A stretch of 15,492 nt of DNA from a bacterium (GCA_040757115.1 JBFLYA010000084.1:1-15492); one strand, 5' to 3'; shown: positions 203 through 13,604, counted from the first letter of the stretch. Notes: generated by a model from the letters alone, not told the origin. Made by a program: numbers and translations.

Positions 203-249
203 TTTTGATATATAGCCTGAACGGTTACGATAAGAAAAGGAGAGGAACA

Positions 250-3003
250 ATGAATTTTAAATCTTATTTAGAAAATATTTTAAACGATGAAGAAATTAAT
301 AAGTGGCAACGGCTTTACATTCCATTAAATGCGGAAGAGGTGCTTGAGGAATTATCTATTACGCCTGAAGTTGAGAAGAGGATATTAGAAAAAGCCTCAA
401 TAGAAGATAAAGATATTCTCCAATCTCGATTTAAAAGGAATAAATACGAGTTTAAAACCAAAGATATGATAACAGAATTGCTCGAAACAAAAGTCAGACG
501 GGTGATTTTGATTGGAGAATCAGGCTCAGGAAAGACAACATTGCTTAAGTGGATTACTCTGGTATATGGACAGCAGGCTATTGAAGAAATCAATACCACA
601 GGTGATATTCTCAAATCTAAAATTCCGGTCTATATAGATTTAGCCACTTATCATAAAAAGATAGAGATAGATGGATTTTTACTCCAGTATTTAAAATCTC
701 ATAATTTAGAATGTAGTTTTGAGGAATTAATTCCTGGTTTTGAATCAGGTAAATTCTTATTTTTGTTTGATGGATTAGACCTATTAGGAGTTAAAACTGA
801 AGATTTTGACCCAATTACTTCTATCCAGAAATTTATTAATAAATATCCCAAAAATATCTACCTTTTAAGTTGCCGTAAAGGGGTGCGTTATACCAATTTT
901 CCACCTACTTATAAAATAATAGAATTAGCCGAATTAACCAGGGAAAAGATTGCCGAATATCTGGCACATTATGTCAAAGATACAAGTAAAAAAGATGAAA
1001 TATTAGCCCAAATACAAAAATTGCCTCAGTTTGAAGAAACTACACCTCTAATGTTACTTTTAATCATTCCTGTATTTACTCGATTTAAAGAAATCCCAAT
1101 AAATAAAACCCGGATTTATTCGCAGTATATCAATTGCTTATACGATTTGTTTGAAAAAATAGGACGACTAACTAATATAGAAAAAGAGTTAATAAATGCT
1201 ATCCTGAGTGAGTTAGGATTTGATTTGCAAGTAGATGATGAAACTGTTCTTGAGGAAGAGAAGGTTTTAGATATAATTGCCAATTTTATTATCAAGCATA
1301 AATATAATCGGCTGGCTAAAGATGAGATTTTAAAATTATGTAGTCAATTAGGATTTTTGAAGATGCAAGATGGGGAGGTAAAGTTTTTCTATCAATCATT
1401 TCGTGAGTATTTCGCTTCATTGAAGTTAAAAGAGTTGTTTTTGGGAGGTGTAGATATTTCAGGGACTTTTACTCATCCTAAGTGGGAAGATGTCTTGACT
1501 TTCTTAAGTTCAAATCTCGAAGAGCCAGATGCCAGTAGATTAATTCAAGCAATTGTCAAAACTCCCTATGAGTTTCGTAATCCATTATTTGTTGCAGGTA
1601 AATGTCTTATAGGAAATATGGTAAAGGAAGATACCAGACAAGAAATTATTAATCAACTTTTAACTAATACAGTAGATAAATATTGGCATAATCAACGAGA
1701 ATCTATTTATCTCTTAACTCAGATTTTAGGTGAGGAAATAGCTTCAACGACAATAGAATCTTTGATTGAGCAATTAAAAGATGAAGATTGGATTCGAAGG
1801 GAGAAATCGGCTAAATCAATGGGTAGAATGTGCGGTAAAGAAGCAATCGCTCACATTAGACGGCTTTTAGAGGATGAAAATCCATCTGTTTATAATGCCG
1901 CCTTTGAAGCCCTCATTGAAATAGAAAGAAGAGAAAAAGAAGATATCAAAATCGAACTGGAAGAGATTAAAGGGATAAAAGAAGTAGAAGAGATTCCGCC
2001 TCAACTATCTGAAATTACAGAAATTATACCTCAAGAAGAAGAAAGGAAGATAATTCCGACAGAGAATTTAACCCTGGTCTATATAAACCTGACTCGAGCC
2101 GTTGAAGGGCTGGGGATACAATTAGATGAAGCTAAATCAGTAATTATCAACCAGGTTTTTAATAATACCCTGAGACCTATTATAGAAACAGAACATGGTG
2201 AAGTTGATGAAATGGAAGAAGAAGTAACCATTGCTACCTTTGATGGCCCAAAAGAGGCACTTTATGCTACGGTCAAAATGCAAAGTGCCATAGATGAATA
2301 TAACCTCCGTCAGCCTTCACGAAAGGTCTCTTTAAAACTTGCTGTATCGACTAAACACCATGGAGAATCAATAGATAGAGTGAAAATTTTAGCCACTAAA
2401 ATAGGTGAATTGACCAGAGCAGGACAAATATTAGTTATTGAAAATGCATACAAAGCCGTGCATGGTAAGGATAAGACAGTTAGATTTCGATATTATGGCT
2501 CTCGAAAATTAGAAGGAGAGGAAAGCCAGAAACGTGGAATATATGAATTATTATGGCAAGGAGAAGAACATGCCTCAATGATTAAAGAATCAATTATGGC
2601 GATTGAGTATTTAGAACAGGTTTCCGCATATAATATAACTAAAAATAAACCCATTATTGGTAAAATAAAAGTGGCAAGAACCTTTTTAAAAAGATTAAAA
2701 GGACTAATGTTCGCTAAAGAGACACAACCTTTAGTCATAGAATTTGCGGCATCTTCTGGAATAAAATCCCCTATTCACACCTTTTTTGTGCAGTTCCCTA
2801 TAGATGCTGTGTTTTTAGACCCCAATTTTAAGGTAGTAGATTTGATGGAAAATTTACCACCAGTTAAACTTGCCGACACAAGCACCTGGAAAATATACAC
2901 CCCAGATGCCCCAGCAAAATATGTCTTAGAACTCCCTCAAGGAACAATAAAAAATAATGGTATAGAGTTATCGGATATTATTATCTTTAAAGAAGGAATA
3001 TAA
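250..3003 (+). CDS. NACHT NTPase / HEAT / cyclase-like / DUF192 fusion protein
   Basis: A 917-residue STAND-type signalling NTPase. The start is the ATG at 250, preceded by GGAGAGG; an in-frame TTG at 205 is less likely. Domains: N-terminal helical lead (1-80); NACHT with Walker A GESGSGKTT (89-97, K95), Walker B FLFDGLD (D174, D177) and a sensor-like SCR (207-209); a winged-helix-like segment with SFREYFA (383-389), a form common in NACHT proteins; HEAT/PBS-lyase-like repeats (about 500-560); a charged linker (about 560-605); a class III adenylate cyclase-like domain (607-770); and DUF192 (804-915, with RLKGLM and YVLELPQGTI). The cyclase domain looks catalytically dead: N613 stands where the first metal Asp is expected, and EE replaces the GD of the second site. 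No signal peptide or membrane segment is seen, so it is probably cytosolic. Known STAND proteins switch on by nucleotide-driven oligomerisation after sensing a ligand. The ligand and output here are unknown. A role in defence or signalling is inference. Confidence 0.85.
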   Translation: MNFKSYLENILNDEEINKWQRLYIPLNAEEVLEELSITPEVEKRILEKASIEDKDILQSRFKRNKYEFKTKDMITELLETKVRRVILIGESGSGKTTLLKWITLVYGQQAIEEINTTGDILKSKIPVYIDLATYHKKIEIDGFLLQYLKSHNLECSFEELIPGFESGKFLFLFDGLDLLGVKTEDFDPITSIQKFINKYPKNIYLLSCRKGVRYTNFPPTYKIIELAELTREKIAEYLAHYVKDTSKKDEILAQIQKLPQFEETTPLMLLLIIPVFTRFKEIPINKTRIYSQYINCLYDLFEKIGRLTNIEKELINAILSELGFDLQVDDETVLEEEKVLDIIANFIIKHKYNRLAKDEILKLCSQLGFLKMQDGEVKFFYQSFREYFASLKLKELFLGGVDISGTFTHPKWEDVLTFLSSNLEEPDASRLIQAIVKTPYEFRNPLFVAGKCLIGNMVKEDTRQEIINQLLTNTVDKYWHNQRESIYLLTQILGEEIASTTIESLIEQLKDEDWIRREKSAKSMGRMCGKEAIAHIRRLLEDENPSVYNAAFEALIEIERREKEDIKIELEEIKGIKEVEEIPPQLSEITEIIPQEEERKIIPTENLTLVYINLTRAVEGLGIQLDEAKSVIINQVFNNTLRPIIETEHGEVDEMEEEVTIATFDGPKEALYATVKMQSAIDEYNLRQPSRKVSLKLAVSTKHHGESIDRVKILATKIGELTRAGQILVIENAYKAVHGKDKTVRFRYYGSRKLEGEESQKRGIYELLWQGEEHASMIKESIMAIEYLEQVSAYNITKNKPIIGKIKVARTFLKRLKGLMFAKETQPLVIEFAASSGIKSPIHTFFVQFPIDAVFLDPNFKVVDLMENLPPVKLADTSTWKIYTPDAPAKYVLELPQGTIKNNGIELSDIIIFKEGI

Positions 3004-3049
3004 TCGTGTCCTATAGCAGTTATTAGTCAAAACTTTCCTCAGAGTGGAT

Positions 3050-3225
3050 AAGTAAAAAATCCCAAATCCCAAGCACCAAATCTCAAATAAGCACCAAATT
3101 CCACATACCAAAAAGCGAATTAGAGATTAGTGAATTAGAGATTAGATTTTACTAATTCGCTAATTCGCTTAATTCACTAATTCACTAAATGGAATTTGGA
3201 ATTTGTGATTTGGAATTTCAGAGCC
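3050..3225. repeat. Nested imperfect palindrome of short repeated words
   Basis: The outer arms are repeats of CCAAAT/AAATTCCA-type words (about 3058-3105) against TGGAATTT-type words (about 3190-3220). The inner arms are AATTAGAGATTAG-type (about 3114-3147) against CTAATTCGCTAATTC-type words (about 3153-3187). The arrangement is that of a quasi-palindrome grown by short duplications. It lies between the stop of the NACHT gene and the end of the cassette-like array. It could act as a bidirectional terminator, but no U-rich tail stands out. Confidence 0.65.
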
Positions 3226-3264
3226 ATATCTATGTCAAATTTCGATTAATAAGTGCTATCGCTC

Positions 3265-3363: not shown

Positions 3364-3455
3364 GCCTAACGGCTGAGCGTATCTGAAGTTCCGAGCGGAG
3401 CGAGGAATTTGGGCAAAGTGCCGAAGGCACGGAGCCAGATATGCGTCTGTTAGGC
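3364..3455 (-). other. attC-like recombination site C (92 bp)
   Basis: Read on the minus strand, the site opens with GCCTAAC (3455-3449) and closes with GTTAGGC (3370-3364), which fit the RYYYAAC and GTTRRRY core boxes of integron attC sites. Inside, GCATATCTG pairs with the complement of GCGTATCTG with one mismatch, and one extra base is left unpaired next to it, as expected for L boxes with an extrahelical base. Two small hairpins fill the centre: TTCC...GGAA and GTGCCGAAGGCAC. It begins 16 bp after the stop codon of the efflux gene, the usual place for a cassette's attC. Confidence 0.72.
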
Positions 3456-4411
3456 GATGTTGGGGCATAATTCATTTGCAGTGATTTATTTCTATAGTTA
3501 TATGCGCTAATCCATCAATTCCTTTTAATTTATTTTTATAAGCAATTATTGAGCAGGGATTCTTAGCAACAATGCTTAAAATACATGCATATTTGTTTTG
3601 TGCTACTCTCCAAAAATGTAAATCGCTAATTTTACTATCACCATCAGATTCTATTATTTCTGTTATTTCTTTAATGAGCGGAGAATCCATCTCTCTATCT
3701 AATAAAATGCCAGAGGTATCTTTAATAAGCATAAGTGTCCATCTAAATATTAAAAATGAACCAATTATTCCTACGAATGGATCAAGCCAATTCCAGTGAT
3801 AATATTTCGTTCCGAGTAGAGCTATAATGGCAAATATGGAGGTTAATGCATCTGTAATGACATGGATATAGGCAGATTGTAAATTAAGGTCTTTTTCGTG
3901 ATTGTGGTGAGCAGGGTTATATTGCAGTATTAGTGCGCTAACTATGTTTACTATTAAACCGACAAACGCCACTATTAATGCATAATCATAAATAATTTCC
4001 ATCGGTTTGAAAATTCGTTCAATAGATTTTCCTAAAACGAATAAACCAACTATTCCTAAAAGAACTGCATTTGTATAAGCACCTAATATTTCGATTTTCC
4101 AGGTACCAAAAGCGAATCTTTTATCATTTGCATGTTTTCTCGCAAGAATGTATGCAATTAAAGAAATACTTAATGCAGTCGCATGTGTACTCATATGCCA
4201 TCCATCAGCAAACAGGGCCATAGAATTATAAACCCAACCCGCAATAATTTCAATTAACATTGTTGACAATGTTAAAAGAACAATAAAAAGCGTTCTTCGT
4301 TCAGTAGATTTTTTCTCTTGATTAAAGTAGTGATGATGTTGCCATCGCTGTATTTCTGTTAGATGCATAACTTATTCCTTTTGAATGATCTTACGCCCCA
4401 ATGTCGCCTAA
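3370..4411 (-). mobile_element. Putative integron gene cassette carrying dmeF-like gene
   Basis: A 1,042 bp unit bounded by the G^TT cut positions of two attC-like sites. It holds one gene in the same orientation as its neighbour cassette and almost nothing else: the ATG lies 38 bp after the upstream core box and the stop 16 bp before site C. The sequence just inside its start (4391-4412) is the inverted complement of the sequence around its own R'' box (3449-3470), 19 of 22 bases. This compact one-gene layout is typical of cassettes. No integrase gene is present in the window. Confidence 0.62.
3472..4368 (-). CDS. dmeF: DmeF-type cation diffusion facilitator (Co/Ni efflux)
   Basis: A 298-residue inner-membrane cation diffusion facilitator, which exports divalent metal using the proton gradient. 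The DmeF branch is recognised by the N-terminal HHHYF, the ERRT stretch before the first membrane helix, and the second-helix motif ADGWHMSTHA (D55, H58, H62). The other half of the metal site is HVITD (H169, D173). About six hydrophobic segments span residues 25-215, with a short His cluster (154-157) in the loop before helix 5 and a cytoplasmic CDF C-terminal domain after 220. DmeF members are known for cobalt and nickel efflux; the metal here is inferred. The start is the ATG at 4368 with AAGGA upstream. The gene is the only cargo of its attC-bounded cassette and may depend on read-through transcription. Length is normal for the family. Confidence 0.88.
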   Translation of the reverse strand: MHLTEIQRWQHHHYFNQEKKSTERRTLFIVLLTLSTMLIEIIAGWVYNSMALFADGWHMSTHATALSISLIAYILARKHANDKRFAFGTWKIEILGAYTNAVLLGIVGLFVLGKSIERIFKPMEIIYDYALIVAFVGLIVNIVSALILQYNPAHHNHEKDLNLQSAYIHVITDALTSIFAIIALLGTKYYHWNWLDPFVGIIGSFLIFRWTLMLIKDTSGILLDREMDSPLIKEITEIIESDGDSKISDLHFWRVAQNKYACILSIVAKNPCSIIAYKNKLKGIDGLAHITIEINHCK

Positions 4412-4726
4412 CGGGGTGCGGATGAGCGAAGTGCCCCGAAGGGGCATTTTGGTTTCAGCCCCGACCCGCAAGCGCGACCCACTTCGTGGGTGCCCCACCG
4501 CCGCCGCTGATAGCCGAAGTGACGCAGAGCCACTTCCGATTTCAAGAAAAAACTTCCGGACTACATCTGGCTGAAGCTCTTCGCTCATCCGCACCCCGAT
4601 AACCAAAATGCGAACCCCAAAGGGGTTTAATCTCTGCGTCATTTTGGTTATCGGGTTGCGTGTTTACGACATTGCGACCAAAGGGAGAAATGTGGTTTTA
4701 ACCCTTGCGTAAACATGTTGTTAGAC
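4406..4726 (-). other. Composite or rearranged attC-like site B
   Basis: Read on minus, it opens with GTCTAAC (4726-4720) and closes with GTTAGGC (4412-4406). The last 66 bp (4406-4471) match site A (5519-5584) at 65 of 66 positions. The 4601-4655 part resembles the other half of site A. Between them sit about 130 extra bases, including an inverted copy (about 4577-4598) of the site's own end. A separate stem (GTTTACG with CGTAAAC) occupies 4656-4720 but has no closing GTTRRRY box. A perfect 16-bp stem pairs 4595-4610 with 4640-4655. The simplest reading is two attC sites fused after loss of what lay between them. Confidence 0.6.
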
Positions 4727-5148
4727 GCTGTTGGTCGCTTCCTCATTTAATCCATTGGTAAAACTAATCTTATTTAAAACAAATTCTTTTACCTTTTTTG
4801 CTATTTCATATGCTTCTTTTACATCCTCTTGTGTTGGTTCAAACCAATCATCAGGATAACGAATCTCTACAGCATAATCTTCTAACTTTTCAACCATCTC
4901 ATAAATTCCCTCGGATATCTCTTCTTTTTCACCTATCAAATCTAACAAATAGCTTAAACTATGTTTTTTCTCAAATTTAATATCTAAAAATACCAGGTAG
5001 GCTTTTAAGTATTTTTCAACTGTTTGTTGGCAATGGAAACATATAGAATCTGTAATTCGGGCTTATTTTCTAAGGCTAATTCTGCCATCCCTAAATCGTG
5101 CTCTGCCTTACCAATCCATTCTTTAATCAGTAGAGTTATATTATCCAT
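4721..5148 (-). pseudogene. HEPN-domain protein, interrupted by a frameshift
   Basis: The ATG at 5148 begins MDNITLLIKEWIGKAEHDLG, a typical HEPN N-terminus. That frame runs to a stop soon after residue 37, and the family's FHCQQTVEKYLKAYL motif continues in another frame from 5038. Adding one base in the T run at about 5037-5039 restores one 142-residue frame ending at 4721. The rejoined protein resembles the PF05168 HEPN group (FHCQQ, then KKHSLSYLL, then EIRYPDDW). I see no Rx4-6H motif of the RNase-type HEPN toxins. The start overlaps the end of the nucleotidyltransferase gene by 8 bp (5141-5148), so the two were probably translated together. The stop TAA falls inside the GTCTAAC core box of site B. 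This may be a real mutation or a sequencing error. Confidence 0.82.
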
Positions 5149-5455
5149 AGATAACCTTTCCTTTCTCCATAACAGTTGTTATAAAAGCTGGTTTAACATC
5201 GCTCCATTTCTGAATTTCCTCTTTAGTATATACCAGTAAATCAATGGCAATTTTTAAGCCCCTAAGATACTTTCGGATTTCTCTTCCTCTCTTATACCTT
5301 GGAAGATTACTTTCCTTAATTATCAATATATCTAAATCACTATCTTTTGTGGGATTTCCAGAGGCATAAGAGCCAAAAAGAATTATTTTTTCCGGCTTGA
5401 TATTCTCTACAATCCTTCTTTTAACCTCATCTATCTGTTCTTGGGTTACTATCAA
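5141..5455 (-). CDS. MNT-type nucleotidyltransferase (putative antitoxin of HEPN pair)
   Basis: A 104-residue minimal nucleotidyltransferase of the pol-beta fold. The active-site motif is intact: GSYASG (28-33), SDLD (39-42, with D40 and D42) and a third acid in IDLLVY (D72). In studied MNT/HEPN modules the MNT partner modifies its HEPN toxin by adding nucleotides and so neutralises it; that role is inferred here. The start is TTG at 5455 with a strong AAGGGGG upstream, about 64 bp after the core box of site A. The 3' end overlaps the HEPN start by 8 bp, indicating translational coupling. The length is normal for the family. Confidence 0.85.
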   Translation of the reverse strand: MIVTQEQIDEVKRRIVENIKPEKIILFGSYASGNPTKDSDLDILIIKESNLPRYKRGREIRKYLRGLKIAIDLLVYTKEEIQKWSDVKPAFITTVMEKGKVIYG

Positions 5456-5518
5456 TTTAACGCCCCCTTTTATTTTTACTAATTACATTCTTTCTTCCTT
5501 ATTTAAGCGACCAATGGC

Positions 5519-5633
5519 GTCTAACGGGGTGCGGATGAGCGAAGTGCCCCGAAGGGGCATTTTGGTTTCAGCCCCGACCCGCAAAATGCGAACCCGAAGG
5601 GATTCGAGCTCTGCGTCATTTTGTCGGTTAGGC
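5519..5633 (-). other. attC-like recombination site A (115 bp)
   Basis: On the minus strand it opens with GCCTAAC (5633-5627) and closes with GTTAGAC (5525-5519). Next to these boxes, ATGACGC faces the complement of ATGAGCG, the same L-box pattern with an offset base as in site C. The interior holds the hairpins GCCCCGAAGGGGC (about 5536-5548) and CCCGAAGGG (about 5593-5601). It is GC-rich against an AT-rich background and 65 of 66 bases at one end match site B. The gene upstream of it in cassette order is the propeller protein, whose stop is 118 bp away. Confidence 0.72.
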
Positions 5634-5751
5634 TAAGAGAAGTGCGATAGCATTTGGATGTCAATCTTTTAGCTTGTGTTATCTGCCGTTGGCAGGCATT
5701 CCTCTCAAATAAACAAGTAAATTTCAATATTCAAGGTCTGATTCCACTCCT

Positions 5752-7236
5752 TTACGGCGTGAAGGTGAAGGTTTCGATGTCGGTCGTTAAGTGGTCGCCA
5801 GTGATGGGATGGAGTAGTCTGCCCAGAACTTCATATAGCCCTGCTGGCTCACTACCAGTAAAGGTGTAGGTAAGAAGATTTAATGGACCAATCCCTCCTG
5901 CAGGAATAGTAATATTATACATATTTATCAACGAAATATAGTCACCCGTAGGTAACTTTATACAAACCTTTGCATCCACCGTTGTAGCAGAACCTGGATT
6001 ATCTACCCTGACATCTATCCTTGCCGTATCTCCGGTGGTAAATGTGTCCTGGTTTAAGATAATATCAATAGCAAATGATGGGGAAAATGTCCCTCTTTTA
6101 TAATAAATCTCAGCATTTCCATCTCGAGTATCGTGCCAAACGATATGTATCCCATTTGCATCTGAGATAATCGCCGGATGATCAGACCAACCTGAATCAT
6201 AAGTCAACCGCACATCCGCTCCCCAGATATTTCCTCCGTCCTGACTACGCTTATAATAAATCTCATAATTTCCATCTCGATAATCAACCCAAACGATATG
6301 TATCCCGTGTGCATCTGAGGTAATCGCCGGCCACCAAGAACCAGCTGAATTATCAGTCAATTGGACATCAGGTCCCCAGGTATTTCCTCCATCCTGACTA
6401 CGCTTATAATAAATCTCAGAATTTCTATCTCGCTCATCATACCAAACGATATGTATCCCGTGTGCATTTGAGGTAATCGCCGGATAGTGAGAATAACTTG
6501 GATCATTAGTCAACCGCACATCCGGTCCCCAGGTATTTCCTCCATCCTGACTACGCTTATAATAAATCTCCCAATTTCCATCTCGATAATCCATCCAAAC
6601 GATATGTATCCCGTGTGCATCTGAGGTAATCGCCGCCGGATGCCAAGACAAACGTGAAGCATTAGTCAACCGCACATCCGGTCCCCAAGTATCTCCTCCA
6701 TCCTGACTACGCTTATAATAAATCTCAGAATCTCGCCAATCCTCCCAAACGATATGTATCCCGTATGCATCTGAGGTAATCGCAGGATACTGAGAATAAC
6801 TTGGATCATAAGTCAACCGCACATCCGGTCCCCAGGTATCTCCTCCATCCTGACTACGCTTATAATAAATCTCCCAATTTCCATCTCGATAATCATGCCA
6901 AACGATATGTAACCCGTGTGCATCTGAGGTAATCGCCGGATTCCCAGACAAACTTGAATCATAAGTCAACCGCACATCTGGTCCCCAGGTATTTCCTCCA
7001 TCCTGACTACGCTTATAATAAATCTCAGCATTTCCATCTCGCCAATCATACCAAACGATATGTATCCCATTTGCATCTGAGGTAATCGCTGGCTCATAAG
7101 ACTCCTTTAAAGCATAAGTCAACCGCACATCCGGTCCCCAGACAGGTTCATCAGCTAAGCATAGATTTGTAACTGAAAATAGTCCTATCACCAACACCCA
7201 TAATTTTAACCCTTTGTTTTTCTTTAAGATTTTCAT
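5752..7236 (-). CDS. Secreted seven-repeat Asp-box (BNR-type) beta-propeller-like protein
   Basis: A 494-residue exported protein. Residues 1-28 form a signal peptide (lysines, a hydrophobic core WVLVIGLF, and CLA before the cleavage point). Residues 33 to about 389 are seven repeats of about 51 residues, each built as WGPDVRLT, PAITSDAHGIHIVW, a D-x-RDGN turn and EIYYKR; the first six end in SQDGGNTW or a close variant, a clean Asp-box. Seven repeats suggest a propeller fold. Residues about 390-494 resemble an Ig-like or CARDB-type beta domain. No sialidase catalytic residues could be assigned, so the function is unknown; surface binding is a guess. The start is ATG at 7236 behind AAGGAGG. 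The gene could be cargo of a first cassette ending in site A, but no attC or attI is seen upstream of it. Confidence 0.82.
   Translation of the reverse strand: MKILKKNKGLKLWVLVIGLFSVTNLCLADEPVWGPDVRLTYALKESYEPAITSDANGIHIVWYDWRDGNAEIYYKRSQDGGNTWGPDVRLTYDSSLSGNPAITSDAHGLHIVWHDYRDGNWEIYYKRSQDGGDTWGPDVRLTYDPSYSQYPAITSDAYGIHIVWEDWRDSEIYYKRSQDGGDTWGPDVRLTNASRLSWHPAAITSDAHGIHIVWMDYRDGNWEIYYKRSQDGGNTWGPDVRLTNDPSYSHYPAITSNAHGIHIVWYDERDRNSEIYYKRSQDGGNTWGPDVQLTDNSAGSWWPAITSDAHGIHIVWVDYRDGNYEIYYKRSQDGGNIWGADVRLTYDSGWSDHPAIISDANGIHIVWHDTRDGNAEIYYKRGTFSPSFAIDIILNQDTFTTGDTARIDVRVDNPGSATTVDAKVCIKLPTGDYISLINMYNITIPAGGIGPLNLLTYTFTGSEPAGLYEVLGRLLHPITGDHLTTDIETFTFTP
6070..7140 (-). repeat. Tandem 153-bp coding repeats in the propeller gene
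   Basis: The landmark CTGACTACGC recurs on the plus strand at 6241, 6394, 6547, 6703, 6850 and 7003, spaced 153, 153, 156, 147 and 153 bp. The units are strongly alike at the DNA level, including synonymous positions. The length variants are whole codons: one extra alanine in repeat 4 and two missing residues in repeat 3. Confidence 0.9.
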
Positions 7237-7874: not shown

Positions 7875-10800
7875 TTACACCTGATTGTTGCCGTTGACTA
7901 ACTTTACGGATAAAAGTTTTGACACGCCGGGTGTTTCCATTGTGATGCCATAGAGGGTAGAAACATTGCTGATGGTTAATTTATTGTGGGTGATAATCAG
8001 AAATTGTGTCTTTTGAGAAAAGGACTTGAGTAATTTGTTAAACCGAAGAATATTCGCCTCATCTAAAGCCGCATCTACTTCGTCTAAGACACAAAAAGGA
8101 CTTGGTTTATGCAGGAATATGGCAAATAATAGACAGATAGAAACTAATGCCTTTTCACCTCCAGATAAAAGTGACATACTTTGCAGGCGTTTGCCGGGTG
8201 GTTGAACATTTATCTCTATCCCCACTTCTTCTGAAGAAGCACCATTGGTTAATCTTAAAGTGCCCATTCCTCCTTCAAATAAACTCTTAACAATCTCTTC
8301 AAAATTGGCTTTAATTTGAGAAAATGTTTTATCAAATAGTTCCTGTGATGTTGTATCGATTTGCTGAATCAAGTTTTGTAAATCCTGTTTGGCATTAATT
8401 AAGTCCTCACGCTGGGAATTTAAGAATTCAAATCGCTTGTTTATCTCCTCATATTCTGCTGGCGCCATCAAATTTACCTCTTTATATGCCTCTAATTTTT
8501 GCCTGGATTTCTCTATCTCTTCTAATAGTTCCTGTTTAGATATGGTCATATTCGGTTCTTTATCCGGTGAAAGAGAGAATTTATATTCTTGTAATAAATG
8601 GTTAGTGATATTTTCCATCTTTAATTTATGTTCTGTAGATTGTAGTTCAATCTGATGCAAACTATTTTTTGTATCATTTTCCTTCTGCTGGGTAGTTTTA
8701 ATCTCTTCTTCTATATTTAAAATAGCCTGCTGTAACAATTGGTCTTCATCCTGAAGTTTATTTAAGATTATATCCCCTTCTTCTTTCTCTTTAATCCTGT
8801 CTTCAATCTCTTTTTCGTAATCAATTTCCCTTTTTGTCTCTCGCTCTTTTTCCTTCAGTAGCCAATTTGTCTCTTCATTTAATCTATCTATTTCCTTTTC
8901 TAAATCTTTTAGACTATCCTTCAACCTATTTATCTGCAGGGTCAGACTCTCTTCGAGTTGTGTCAATTGAGCAAACTTGACCCTGATTTGAGTTACAGTG
9001 GTCATTTTATCCTTTAAGATGGCTTCTTTTGTCTTGACTTCTTGAACAAGTGTAGAAATAAACGATTCATTCTGAACATTGGTAGTATTTTTAGTCTCCT
9101 CTTCACTTTTTAGTTCTTTAATCTTCTCATTTAGTTCAATCAGTTCTTGATGCAAATTGCTCTTTTCCTCTTTTAATGAAGTCAGTTGTCTTAAATTTTC
9201 TTCTTTAATTTCACCTGTTTGAGAAAAATCGCGTTTTAAATTAGAGACGATAATTTCTTGTGAATGAATATTTACCTGGAGATTAGTCAAATCAAGATGT
9301 ATGGATGATAATTCAGACTGCTCTTTTAATCTCTTTTCCTCTAACCCTTTCAATTGAATATCAAGATTACTTAGCCTTTTAGTCAATTCCATAATCTGTT
9401 TTTTGCGATTGATTAAACTTTCGCCTGAAATTTTAGGTAATCCGCCTTGAATAATGCCATTAGAGTCTATCAACTCGCCGTCTAAGGTTGCTATTCGAAG
9501 ATGCTGTGATGAGTTTTTAATAATTTTAGTGGCAGTAGGTAGGTCTTTGGCAACTAATACATTTCCCAAAAGATACTCAAAGGCAGGTTGAAATTTTTTA
9601 TCATAATTGATTAGCTCCAATGCCCAGCCAATTACACCTTCTGAATTAAATGATTTCCGGGAAATGGTAGGGGATTTAACTGCGGATAACGGAATAAAGG
9701 TAACTCGTTGTGCTTTTTTCTCTTTAAGAAATGGGATTATTTGTTCTGCCTGAGTAGTGGTGTTAAGGATTACTGCTTGAATATTTTCTCCCAGACTTAC
9801 CTCGATTGCCTTTTCGAATCTATGGTCAAAATCTATCAAATCAACCACAACCCCTGCAATTTCAGGGAGTAGGTTATTTGAAGTAAGAATTGTTTTGACC
9901 CCGGGTAAGTAACCATCTAATTTTTTCTGTAATTCCTGCAAAGTAGATAATCTGCCAGATATAACCTTCATCTCTTCACGCAGTGTATTTATCTGTGAAT
10001 CAGTTTTATTCACTTCTTGAGTTGTTATCTCTTTTTTAGATTGTGCTTGAGCCAACCTTTTCTTCAGATTAATTATTTTATTCTCTTCTTCGTCTATCTG
10101 TTTTTTTAGTTTATCCAGGTTTTTTTCAATAGTCTCTTTTTTAAAGGTAGTCTTTTCTTCTTCCTCCATTAGTCGTTGCATCCTGAGTTTTATATTCTTT
10201 TGTTCTATTTGTGCTTGACTTAACTGATTGCGTATATGGGCAAGTTGATTTAAAAAGTCAATCATTTCAATCTTTGCCTCTTCTAATTGAGTAGTTTTTT
10301 TCTCTTTTTCTTGTTCTAATTCAGACAGAATAGTTTCTTGTTGGGTTAAATTTTGTAGGGTTTGTTCTAATTCTTTTAATGCCTCCTCTTTATTTTTTTC
10401 TTCGGTAGTAATTTCCTTAGTTAAATTATCAATCTTGTCTTTTGAGGACTTGATTTCCGTATCAATCCGAGCCAATTGTGAATCGATATTAGCCTCTTTC
10501 TCTTTCTGTTGTAAAAGTTGGCCATTTATCCTTTGAATCTCCTGGGCTAAATTAAAGATAATCGGTTGAAGATTTTTTATTTCTTCTTCTTTGTTCTTAA
10601 CCTGGAGTTTTTTATCTGTGAGCAAGGAATTTAGCCGGGTTAAATTAGAGTTTATCTGTTTAGAGTCTCTTGCGATTCGTTCATATTCTTTTGAACAGGC
10701 ATCGTAGGCGGCATTTAAAATTCTATATTCGTCTTCGAACAGGGTTATTTCCAGGTTTTGGAGTTGCGTTTTAATTTCAAGATAGCGTTGTGCTTTTTTT

Positions 10801-11429: not shown

Positions 11430-11525
11430 TAATTTCTCCCCTCCCTATTTTTGGTAAATTAGAGTTCTGCAAAACTAAGAAACTGGAGTTTTTAAATGGG
11501 TATTTAAAACCTCTATTTTTATCAA

Positions 11526-11810
11526 TTTCCTCCAAAGAGCAAAATGCAAAACTCGTTTATAGTTTATGGTTTATAGTTTATAGTGTATAGTTTATAGTTT
11601 ATAGTGTATAGTCCTTCAACTATCAACTATAAACTATCAACTATAAACTATCTTTGCCAAAGTTCAGTAAAATTATCTCTTTCCTTTCAGCGTTAAAATA
11701 CTTGAAGTCCTTTTTGAAATTTGATTTGTAATTTTGCATTTTGATATTTATATTTGATATTTGATATTTGATATTTATTTATTGTCTCCCCCAAATCCTA
11801 TTTTGCAAAA
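11526..11810. repeat. Inverted repeat copy 1 (upstream of the ABC ATPase gene)
   Basis: This is the inverted counterpart of 13221-13473. The outer 25 bases (11526-11550) match 13449-13473 perfectly in inverted orientation. Most of 11671-11805 matches 13222-13412 closely, including the ATATTTGAT-type run. Relative to copy 2 it lacks 47 bases inside and carries a word-repeat hairpin (11555-11652) in place of a short segment. No coding potential is evident. Confidence 0.75.
11555..11652. repeat. TTTATAGT word-repeat hairpin
   Basis: The left half is tandem GTTTATAGT-like units (about 11555-11612) and the right half their complements (ACTATAAACTATCAA-like, about 11618-11652). It lies inside inverted repeat copy 1, where copy 2 has about 30 unrelated AT-rich bases. 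It therefore looks like a separate insertion or expansion. Confidence 0.65.
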
Positions 11811-11891
11811 CACTATTGGTAACTAATTAATTACCAGTTACCACTTTTGAATTATACCCTTAAATTTCTATCCTGTCAAGGAAAAAAATTG

Positions 11892-13158: not shown

Positions 13159-13220
13159 GGAAGGGGTGTGTTTTTCTGGTGGTGTCTTAATCTAGCATAA
13201 AGGTTAAAATAGTGTATAGG

Positions 13221-13473
13221 GTTCTGCAAAATAGGATTTGAGGGAGACAACAAATAAATATCAAATATCAAATATTAAATATCAAATATAAATATCAAAA
13301 TGCAAAATTACAAATCAAATTTCAAAGAGGAAGTAACAGGGTTTCTCAAAGAGTTGGAGGAATTTGGTAATATCTTTGCTTCAAGTATTTTAACGCTGAA
13401 AGGAAAGAGATAATTTTACATTTTGATATGTAATTTTTATATTTGCTTTTTGCATTTTGCTCTTTGGAGGAAA
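13221..13473. repeat. Inverted repeat copy 2 (downstream of the ABC ATPase gene)
   Basis: Inverted copy of 11526-11810. It begins GTTCTGCAAAATAGGATTTG, the near complement of 11792-11810, and ends with the 25 bases that match 11526-11550 perfectly. It contains 47 internal bases missing from copy 1. A 37-codon reading frame (13300-13413, plus strand) crosses those 47 bases but is broken in copy 1, so it is not called as a gene. Confidence 0.75.
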
Positions 13474-13604
13474 TCCCTTTTGGACACCAAATCTGCATAG
13501 ATTTCACTATTAGAGTTATTTTCAGACACCACCGGAAAATCTAATAAAATCAACGGTAAATTCTATCCGAGAGCGTTCTGATAGGCATAGGAGGTTATAA
13601 ATAT

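Follow-up and report, generated by a model that had tools for sequence, protein, structure and literature searches.

A gene cassette array with uninterrupted hairpin sites that appears to belong to an integron-like system other than the IntI integrons

The window examined here, a stretch of 15,492 nucleotides of bacterial DNA, contains part of a cassette array which we assign, at a probability of about 0.75 and on the strength of sequence comparison, to an integron-like system distinct from the IntI integrons. IntB, the name given here to a tyrosine recombinase adjoining arrays of this kind (B arrays, built on B-type sites), is proposed as its recombinase. An earlier note on this DNA had described an attC cluster lacking an integrase; there is indeed a cassette array, on a contig without an integrase, but its sites have uninterrupted stems and are not ordinary attCs, and an integron-like system of another type is the better reading. 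IntI integrons are defined by a matched pair, namely a patch in the protein and the extrahelical bases that the patch reads. Neither partner is found in the B system, and as such we do not file it as a member of the IntI integrons, although as far as its sequence tells it would work like one. It appears to be a second kind of integron, hitherto undescribed, that may be spread over many bacterial lineages.

We think it reasonably probable, if less so than the assignment of the window itself, that this is a second widespread integron type, composed of a recombinase without the I2 patch and hairpins without extrahelical bases, possibly representing the state before the two co-evolved. The stepwise origin of the patch and extrahelical-base pair is a stated open question (PMC4792948), and such a type, if real, would supply the intermediate that this "chicken-egg" problem calls for (PMC4792948). 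With a natural cassette system that has neither partner and an attachment site of its own, the question of integron origin would become testable with existing assays. Furthermore, surveys keyed to the IntI patch and to classic attC models may be missing a class of mobile gene arrays; among the cargo found here are toxin-antitoxin-like pairs, DNA methyltransferases and a metal pump. Our literature search, which covered sources other than subscription journals and preprints, returned no description of patchless integron integrases or of attCs without extrahelical bases.

The cassette array of the window

The array, on the minus strand throughout, has three palindromic sites with two cassettes between them. 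As the earlier note had claimed, the sites carry GTTRRRY-type boxes, the genes between them all point one way, and the cargo is a nucleotidyltransferase/HEPN pair and a cation efflux pump (PF01909, PF05168 and PF01545). Site S1 (3364–3455, minus), a simple B-type attC-like site that matches the B-type covariance model and closes cassette B, lies exactly where it had been placed, with R'' GCCTAAC at 3455–3449, a three-way hairpin and R' GTTAGGC at 3370–3364. The other two sites had to be redrawn. S2 (4406–4726, minus), which closes cassette A, is a composite of 321 nt in which R'' GTCTAAC (4726–4720) is followed by hairpins 1, 2 and 3 and then by R' GTTAGGC (4412–4406); hairpin 2 (CGATAACCAAAATG...CATTTTGGTTATCG; 4597–4653, minus) is near-constant across composite sites, and hairpin 3 (GGGGTGCGGATGAGCG...CGCTCATCCGCACCCC; 4413–4596, minus) resembles the body of a B-type site. 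S3 (5519–5684, minus) is also composite, and is shorter than its counterpart in the sister genome (G001) through an internal deletion. Its R' is GTTAGAC (5525–5519) and its true R'' is AGATAAC (5684–5678), not the GCCTAAC near 5632 that had been proposed.

Cassette A (4412–5524, minus, from G^TT to G^TT) holds a gene for an MNT-like, antitoxin-type nucleotidyltransferase (5141–5455, minus; PF01909, 6.6e-13) and the C-terminal part of a HEPN gene (4721–4948, minus; PF05168, profile positions 63–115), the frame of which is broken by a 1-nt deletion relative to a homologue in G008. Cassette B (3370–4411, minus) holds an intact cation diffusion facilitator gene (3472–4368, minus; PF01545, 1.5e-37). 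Each cassette opens GTT and closes AAC, and its two ends, in register with the boxes, pair at 16 of their 18 bases, the minus-strand start being GTTAGACGCCATTGGTCG in cassette A and GTTAGGCGACATTGGGGC in cassette B. The start and the R'' of a cassette in an array derive from one circle, so that complementary ends are what a cassette requires. Thirteen or more matches among the 15 bases beyond GTT would arise by chance in one named pair with a probability of about 2e-6. A scan of all array loci for complementary ends found 54 pairs against 10 chance pairs per set of shuffled sequence, and with a background of that size the exact position of the pairs at the hairpin boxes counts as well as their number.

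The units also recur elsewhere. A homologue of the nucleotidyltransferase/HEPN unit on another contig of the same genome (C338) has the start GTTAGACGCCATTGGTCGC, as in cassette A, and different neighbours, while the unit in G008, from another family of the phylum, is about 80% identical, with the similarity to the window starting and stopping at the core boxes on the gene side. Both homologues are cut at the same core boxes; a comparison of unit boundaries in related genomes had been proposed in the earlier note. The sister genome has a syntenic locus (DNA identity of 96% for the SMC gene and 98% for OppD) with the longer S3, from which both cassettes of the window are missing; next to it comes an insertion that has inverted repeats, so that loss and absence look alike there. 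Given that this genome is rich in dispersed palindromes and repeats, it could be supposed that the sites are themselves dispersed palindromic repeats or terminators between unrelated genes rather than recombination sites. Such an explanation is already contradicted by the complementary cassette ends, by units that are mobile as wholes, by a three-way structure that covaries and is common to many lineages, and by array starts that are fixed at a site adjoining a recombinase, and we accord it a negligible chance of being correct.

A CALIN is a cluster of attC sites lacking an integron-integrase (PMC9024848), for which two or more attC sites must lie less than 4 kb from each other and no integron-integrase may be close by. 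The window is like a CALIN in having three sites within 2.4 kb on a contig without an integrase, and unlike one in that its sites are of B type and unmatched by our model of classic attCs, which also misses Vibrio sites.

Several other features of the window were recorded. Adjoining S3 is a gene for a BNR-type protein with seven repeats of about 51 residues (5752–7236), broken in the sister genome; its position beside S3 suggests that it was once a cassette, and a search for a matching cassette start found none. Just past the array end lies a repeat of about 248 bp (3012–3259) that looks like a miniature transposable element and recurs, 87–99% identical, in dozens of places in this and the sister genome. 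A dispersed repeat at 1–231 has copies of 95–100% identity on at least five other contigs, and inverted and dispersed repeats at 11525–11816 and 13173–13540, with copies on many contigs, flank a gene for an OppD-like ATPase. The 932-residue protein encoded at 205–3003 is an unusual fusion of a NACHT ATPase, HEAT repeats and a C-terminal DUF192, and could be a signalling or defence protein. In the sister genome, two CRISPR-like repeats (GTCGCCCCCC..GTGGATTGAAAC) stand near an array (L131, about 305–400). An Rfam scan of the window returned nothing meaningful.

Architecture of the B-type sites

The covariance-model check proposed in the earlier note gave a divided answer. Our B-type model (R2), for which 12 hairpins like those of the window were used and the window itself left out, matches all three sites: S1 at 52.9 bits (E 8e-16, E-values from such home-made models being rough), S3 at 28.1 bits, and S2 at both 4652–4726 (27.3 bits) and 4412–4515 (22.7 bits). 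The classic attC model (R1), made from four plasmid sites and eight from the window's phylum, matches none of S1, S2 and S3, but it also found none of the genuine sites of a control Vibrio array. It is thus too narrow to decide membership, and its verdict on the window sites was set aside. A broader attC model including Vibrio sites was dropped, as the sequence alignment set the stems out of register.

Read in the direction of the genes, a B-type site opens with an AAC box and a single base (A); next come an uninterrupted stem of 10–12 bp, a hairpin and CAAAT, followed by a second hairpin, ACTTC, the other arm of the stem, about five bases (RGAAC or CAGCC) and GTT. The spacers are accordingly asymmetric, with 1 nt after R'' and 5 nt before R'. 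The longest uninterrupted stem has a median length of 10 bp in B sites (n=86) versus 6 bp in classic attCs (n=40), where stems are broken by extrahelical bases; B-type stems as a rule have no such base. The offset base that the earlier note had taken for a general feature of the sites is peculiar to S1, and the close relatives of S1 lack it. The 11-pair stem is 96% paired over 69 sites. Across these 69 distinct B sites, 92.4% of cells are paired as against 65.9% in shuffled sequence and 33–46% when the partner is slid, and 19 of the 21 pairs have changes on both sides. One conserved pair is G-U in 52 of the 69, a wobble in the bottom strand that in the top strand would be a C-A mismatch, and in 77 of 86 B sites it is the bottom strand that has the better fold. 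Since extrahelical bases are described as common to all attC sites (PMC2727003), B-type sites differ from ordinary attCs.

Besides S2, a dozen or so composite sites of about 320 bp, whole or partial, are found in the same genome. Each has a B-type body and then, just before G^TT, two further hairpins, of which the second is short (GATAACCAAAATG...CATTTTGGTTATC) and the third is long, with a tip that is once more similar to the B body. Identity between composites reaches 97% for hairpins 2 and 3 while hairpin 1 is variable, and as such the former two behave as a unit placed repeatedly between the spacer and R'. Many B-type sites with composite hairpins 2 and 3 before R' occur on loci L039–L044, L015 and other array contigs of this genome.

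IntB and its attachment-like region

The earlier note had seen no integrase, which is correct for the contig of the window and not for its genome; the latter has an intact IntI and broken ones, and a truncated patchless recombinase, IntB, beside B sites. On contig C154 an IntB gene with a truncated start comes first, then two inverted repeats, the junction TATAAACAA|GTTAGGCG, the first cassette and a B site, everything in one direction. On contig C55 only the last IntB codons are left, before the same attachment-like region and another array. The order seen on C154 recurs in G001, G011, G105 (twice), G019, G279, G179 and G186, and integrase fragments adjoin B sites in G160 and G002; in G001 the IntB fragments lie downstream, not upstream, of a B site. 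IntB or its remnants are co-directional with the B sites on all 13 contigs counted (two-sided p 2e-4 under independence, and contigs of one genome are not independent).

Past the IntB stop, TATRAACAA or a near variant precedes the start of the first cassette wherever this is visible, usually with an inverted repeat, and the junction, usually TATRAACAA|GTT and (A)ACAA|GTT-like, stands 52–125 bp beyond the stop codon. Thirteen loci have such a site downstream of the IntB stop, the fit being poor in three (L182, L220 and L222); the window has none. For comparison, the attI of class 1 integrons (attI1) reads AAAACAAAG|TT. The first cassette of G105 has GTTATGTGAAATAGGCCAAATTTTA at its start and the near-complement of this, TAAAATTTGGCCTACATCACATAAC, at its end, which confirms that the array begins at the attachment-like site. 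Read from sequence, the arrangement is that of integrase, attI and cassettes.

The protein itself is not an IntI. The spacing from KDR to HxxRH is 72 residues in all IntB proteins, 113 in each of six IntIs and 78–79 in Xer; IntB lacks the 41-residue patch of the integron integrases, an additional domain around patch III, and the same residues are left out when it is aligned to VchIntIA, the integrase of V. cholerae (2a3v). IntB matches to TIGR02249 fall below the cut-off and are split in two. In a tree of 22 proteins the IntI clade (100/99) excludes IntB, and the clade of IntBs with arrays or attI-like sites is weak (82/63). Five full-length IntB or IntB-like proteins exceed the cut-off (220 bits) of the XerA-like NCBIfam family NF040815, named "site-specific tyrosine recombinase/integron integrase" (L216, 233.7; L219, 240.2; L220, 261.4; L222, 228.4; L221, 225.0 bits), and the solved structures closest to IntB include XerA (5hxy and 4a8e). 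In contrast to XerA-like recombinases, IntB is linked to cassette arrays and an attI-like site, and there is a weak HARP-like N-terminal match in each of the three intact IntB proteins scanned. The stretch missing from IntB is the domain that reads extrahelical bases (PMC4792948); the protein lacks the domain and the B sites lack the bases, so protein and site agree.

Given these observations, it is reasonable to postulate that the substrates of IntB are B-type attC hairpins of the folded bottom strand, which it recombines with the attI-like site just downstream of intB itself, cutting at G^TT, and that circular cassettes would be inserted at the start of an array co-directional with intB. The choice of strand may be directed by the asymmetric spacers (1 nt after R'' and 5 nt before R') and by the G-T wobble, favourable only in the bottom strand, and these would replace the extrahelical bases that the IntI patch reads. 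From the sequence one reads the cassette units, the structure and covariation of the sites, the co-directional placing of IntB and B arrays, the order of integrase, attI and cassettes, and the absence of the patch; that IntB performs the recombination, that a single strand is used and what selects it, we infer. The array in the window is a piece severed from any integrase; intact IntB is present only in other genomes and the copies found in the window's genome are all truncated, so that this piece is probably silent now unless served in trans.

The B system shares much with IntI integrons, whether class 1, Vibrio or chromosomal: an integrase gene with an adjacent attI ending ACAA(A)G^TT, arrays of single-gene units in one orientation, complementary cassette ends with boundaries at G^TT, and hairpins with RYYYAAC/GTTRRRY-type boxes whose bottom strand folds better. 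Unlike them, it has an integrase without the 41-residue patch (I2 domain), stems without extrahelical bases, spacers of 1 versus 5 nt and a conserved G-T wobble. Unlike the class 1 integrase, which runs away from its array, IntB runs in the same direction.

A further explanation would have the host XerC and XerD act on the B hairpins as on the site of phage CTXphi, a folded single strand in an integrative element that exploits Xer. The stem of the CTXphi site is without extrahelical bases and its recombinase without I2 (PMC4792948), which makes it like the B system; XerC and XerD genes are present in the window's genome, and many B-positive genomes have Xer-like recombinases only. However, the arrays begin with IntB and its own attI-like site, and cassette arrays are no known product of Xer. 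The B system differs from CTXphi in its multi-cassette arrays, dedicated recombinase and own attachment site, and we consider the action of host Xer very improbable.

Certain recombinases were not counted in this work. The IntB-like match in G007 adjoins an IS91-type transposase, that in G013 lies at a contig end without a B site, and L221, L222, L224 and L225 contain related recombinases without B sites at the model threshold, and are not counted as adjacency. Searches of plasmids and phages for IntB returned distant relatives only (the best 51% over two thirds of the protein), none of them seen in a B array. At L184 (3703–5284) a tyrosine recombinase gene is followed by an IS91-type transposase gene, the same pairing being present on an Acinetobacter plasmid.

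Distribution and the classic integrons of the same genome

B-type sites are not confined to the window's phylum. The B-type model has matches in 17 of the 19 genomes of the phylum (E 0.01) and, at E 1e-5, in 46 of the 337 genomes surveyed, which are mostly MAGs. Thirty-two of the positive genomes are from outside the phylum, or about 10% of the 318 sampled there, and the matches are often clustered at cassette-like spacing. A close IntB (E 1e-45) is found in 6 of 46 B-positive versus 7 of 291 B-negative genomes (Fisher p 0.004). Many B arrays thus stand without a close IntB, and many of the genomes in question are CALIN-like or have diverged integrases.

The window's genome carries both systems, IntI with classic attCs and IntB remnants with B sites. 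The intact IntI is on contig C39, and several broken copies are on other contigs; classic attCs, many of which belong to a 132-bp family, surround the IntI copies. The classic model has 51 matches in the array loci, and at least 35 in a whole-genome pass over the best candidates. Broken or partial IntI genes lie on contigs C30, C63, C118, C114, C324 and C116 of G000, which indicates that classic integrons have decayed repeatedly in this genome. The "IntI-like" matches on C50 and C157 are the housekeeping XerC/XerD.

The presence of IntI raises the prospect that a classic IntI (the copy on C39 or an earlier one) recombines the B sites, which would then be ordinary attCs of unusual form, with IntB an unrelated neighbour. 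The G^TT boxes are identical, IntI is present in the window's genome and in several relatives, and IntI1 tolerates deletion of the extrahelical bases in attC x attI recombination with a loss of about 6-fold (PMC2727003). In attC x attC recombination, however, the deletion of these bases from both partners abolishes the activity of IntI (PMC2727003). Furthermore, 18 of 20 B-positive genomes have no IntI above the cut-off, including two that are single contigs (G160 and G279), and IntB is co-directional with the B arrays on 13 contigs. The IntI loci, moreover, carry classic rather than B sites: matches to the classic model occur at IntI loci only, and those to the B-type model at IntB or B loci only, with two exceptions, one a weak B-type match in the far part of contig C39 and the other a mixed contig, C96. 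Classic and B sites share a single array on C96 and point the same way there, so there must be some cross-recognition or a common history, and IntI may act on B sites. On balance we regard recombination of the B sites by a classic IntI as unlikely, and prefer a separate integron-like system served by IntB. At locus L044 (3279–13643) classic attCs (10726–10789 and 11501–11632) are interleaved with B-type sites in a single array of one direction.
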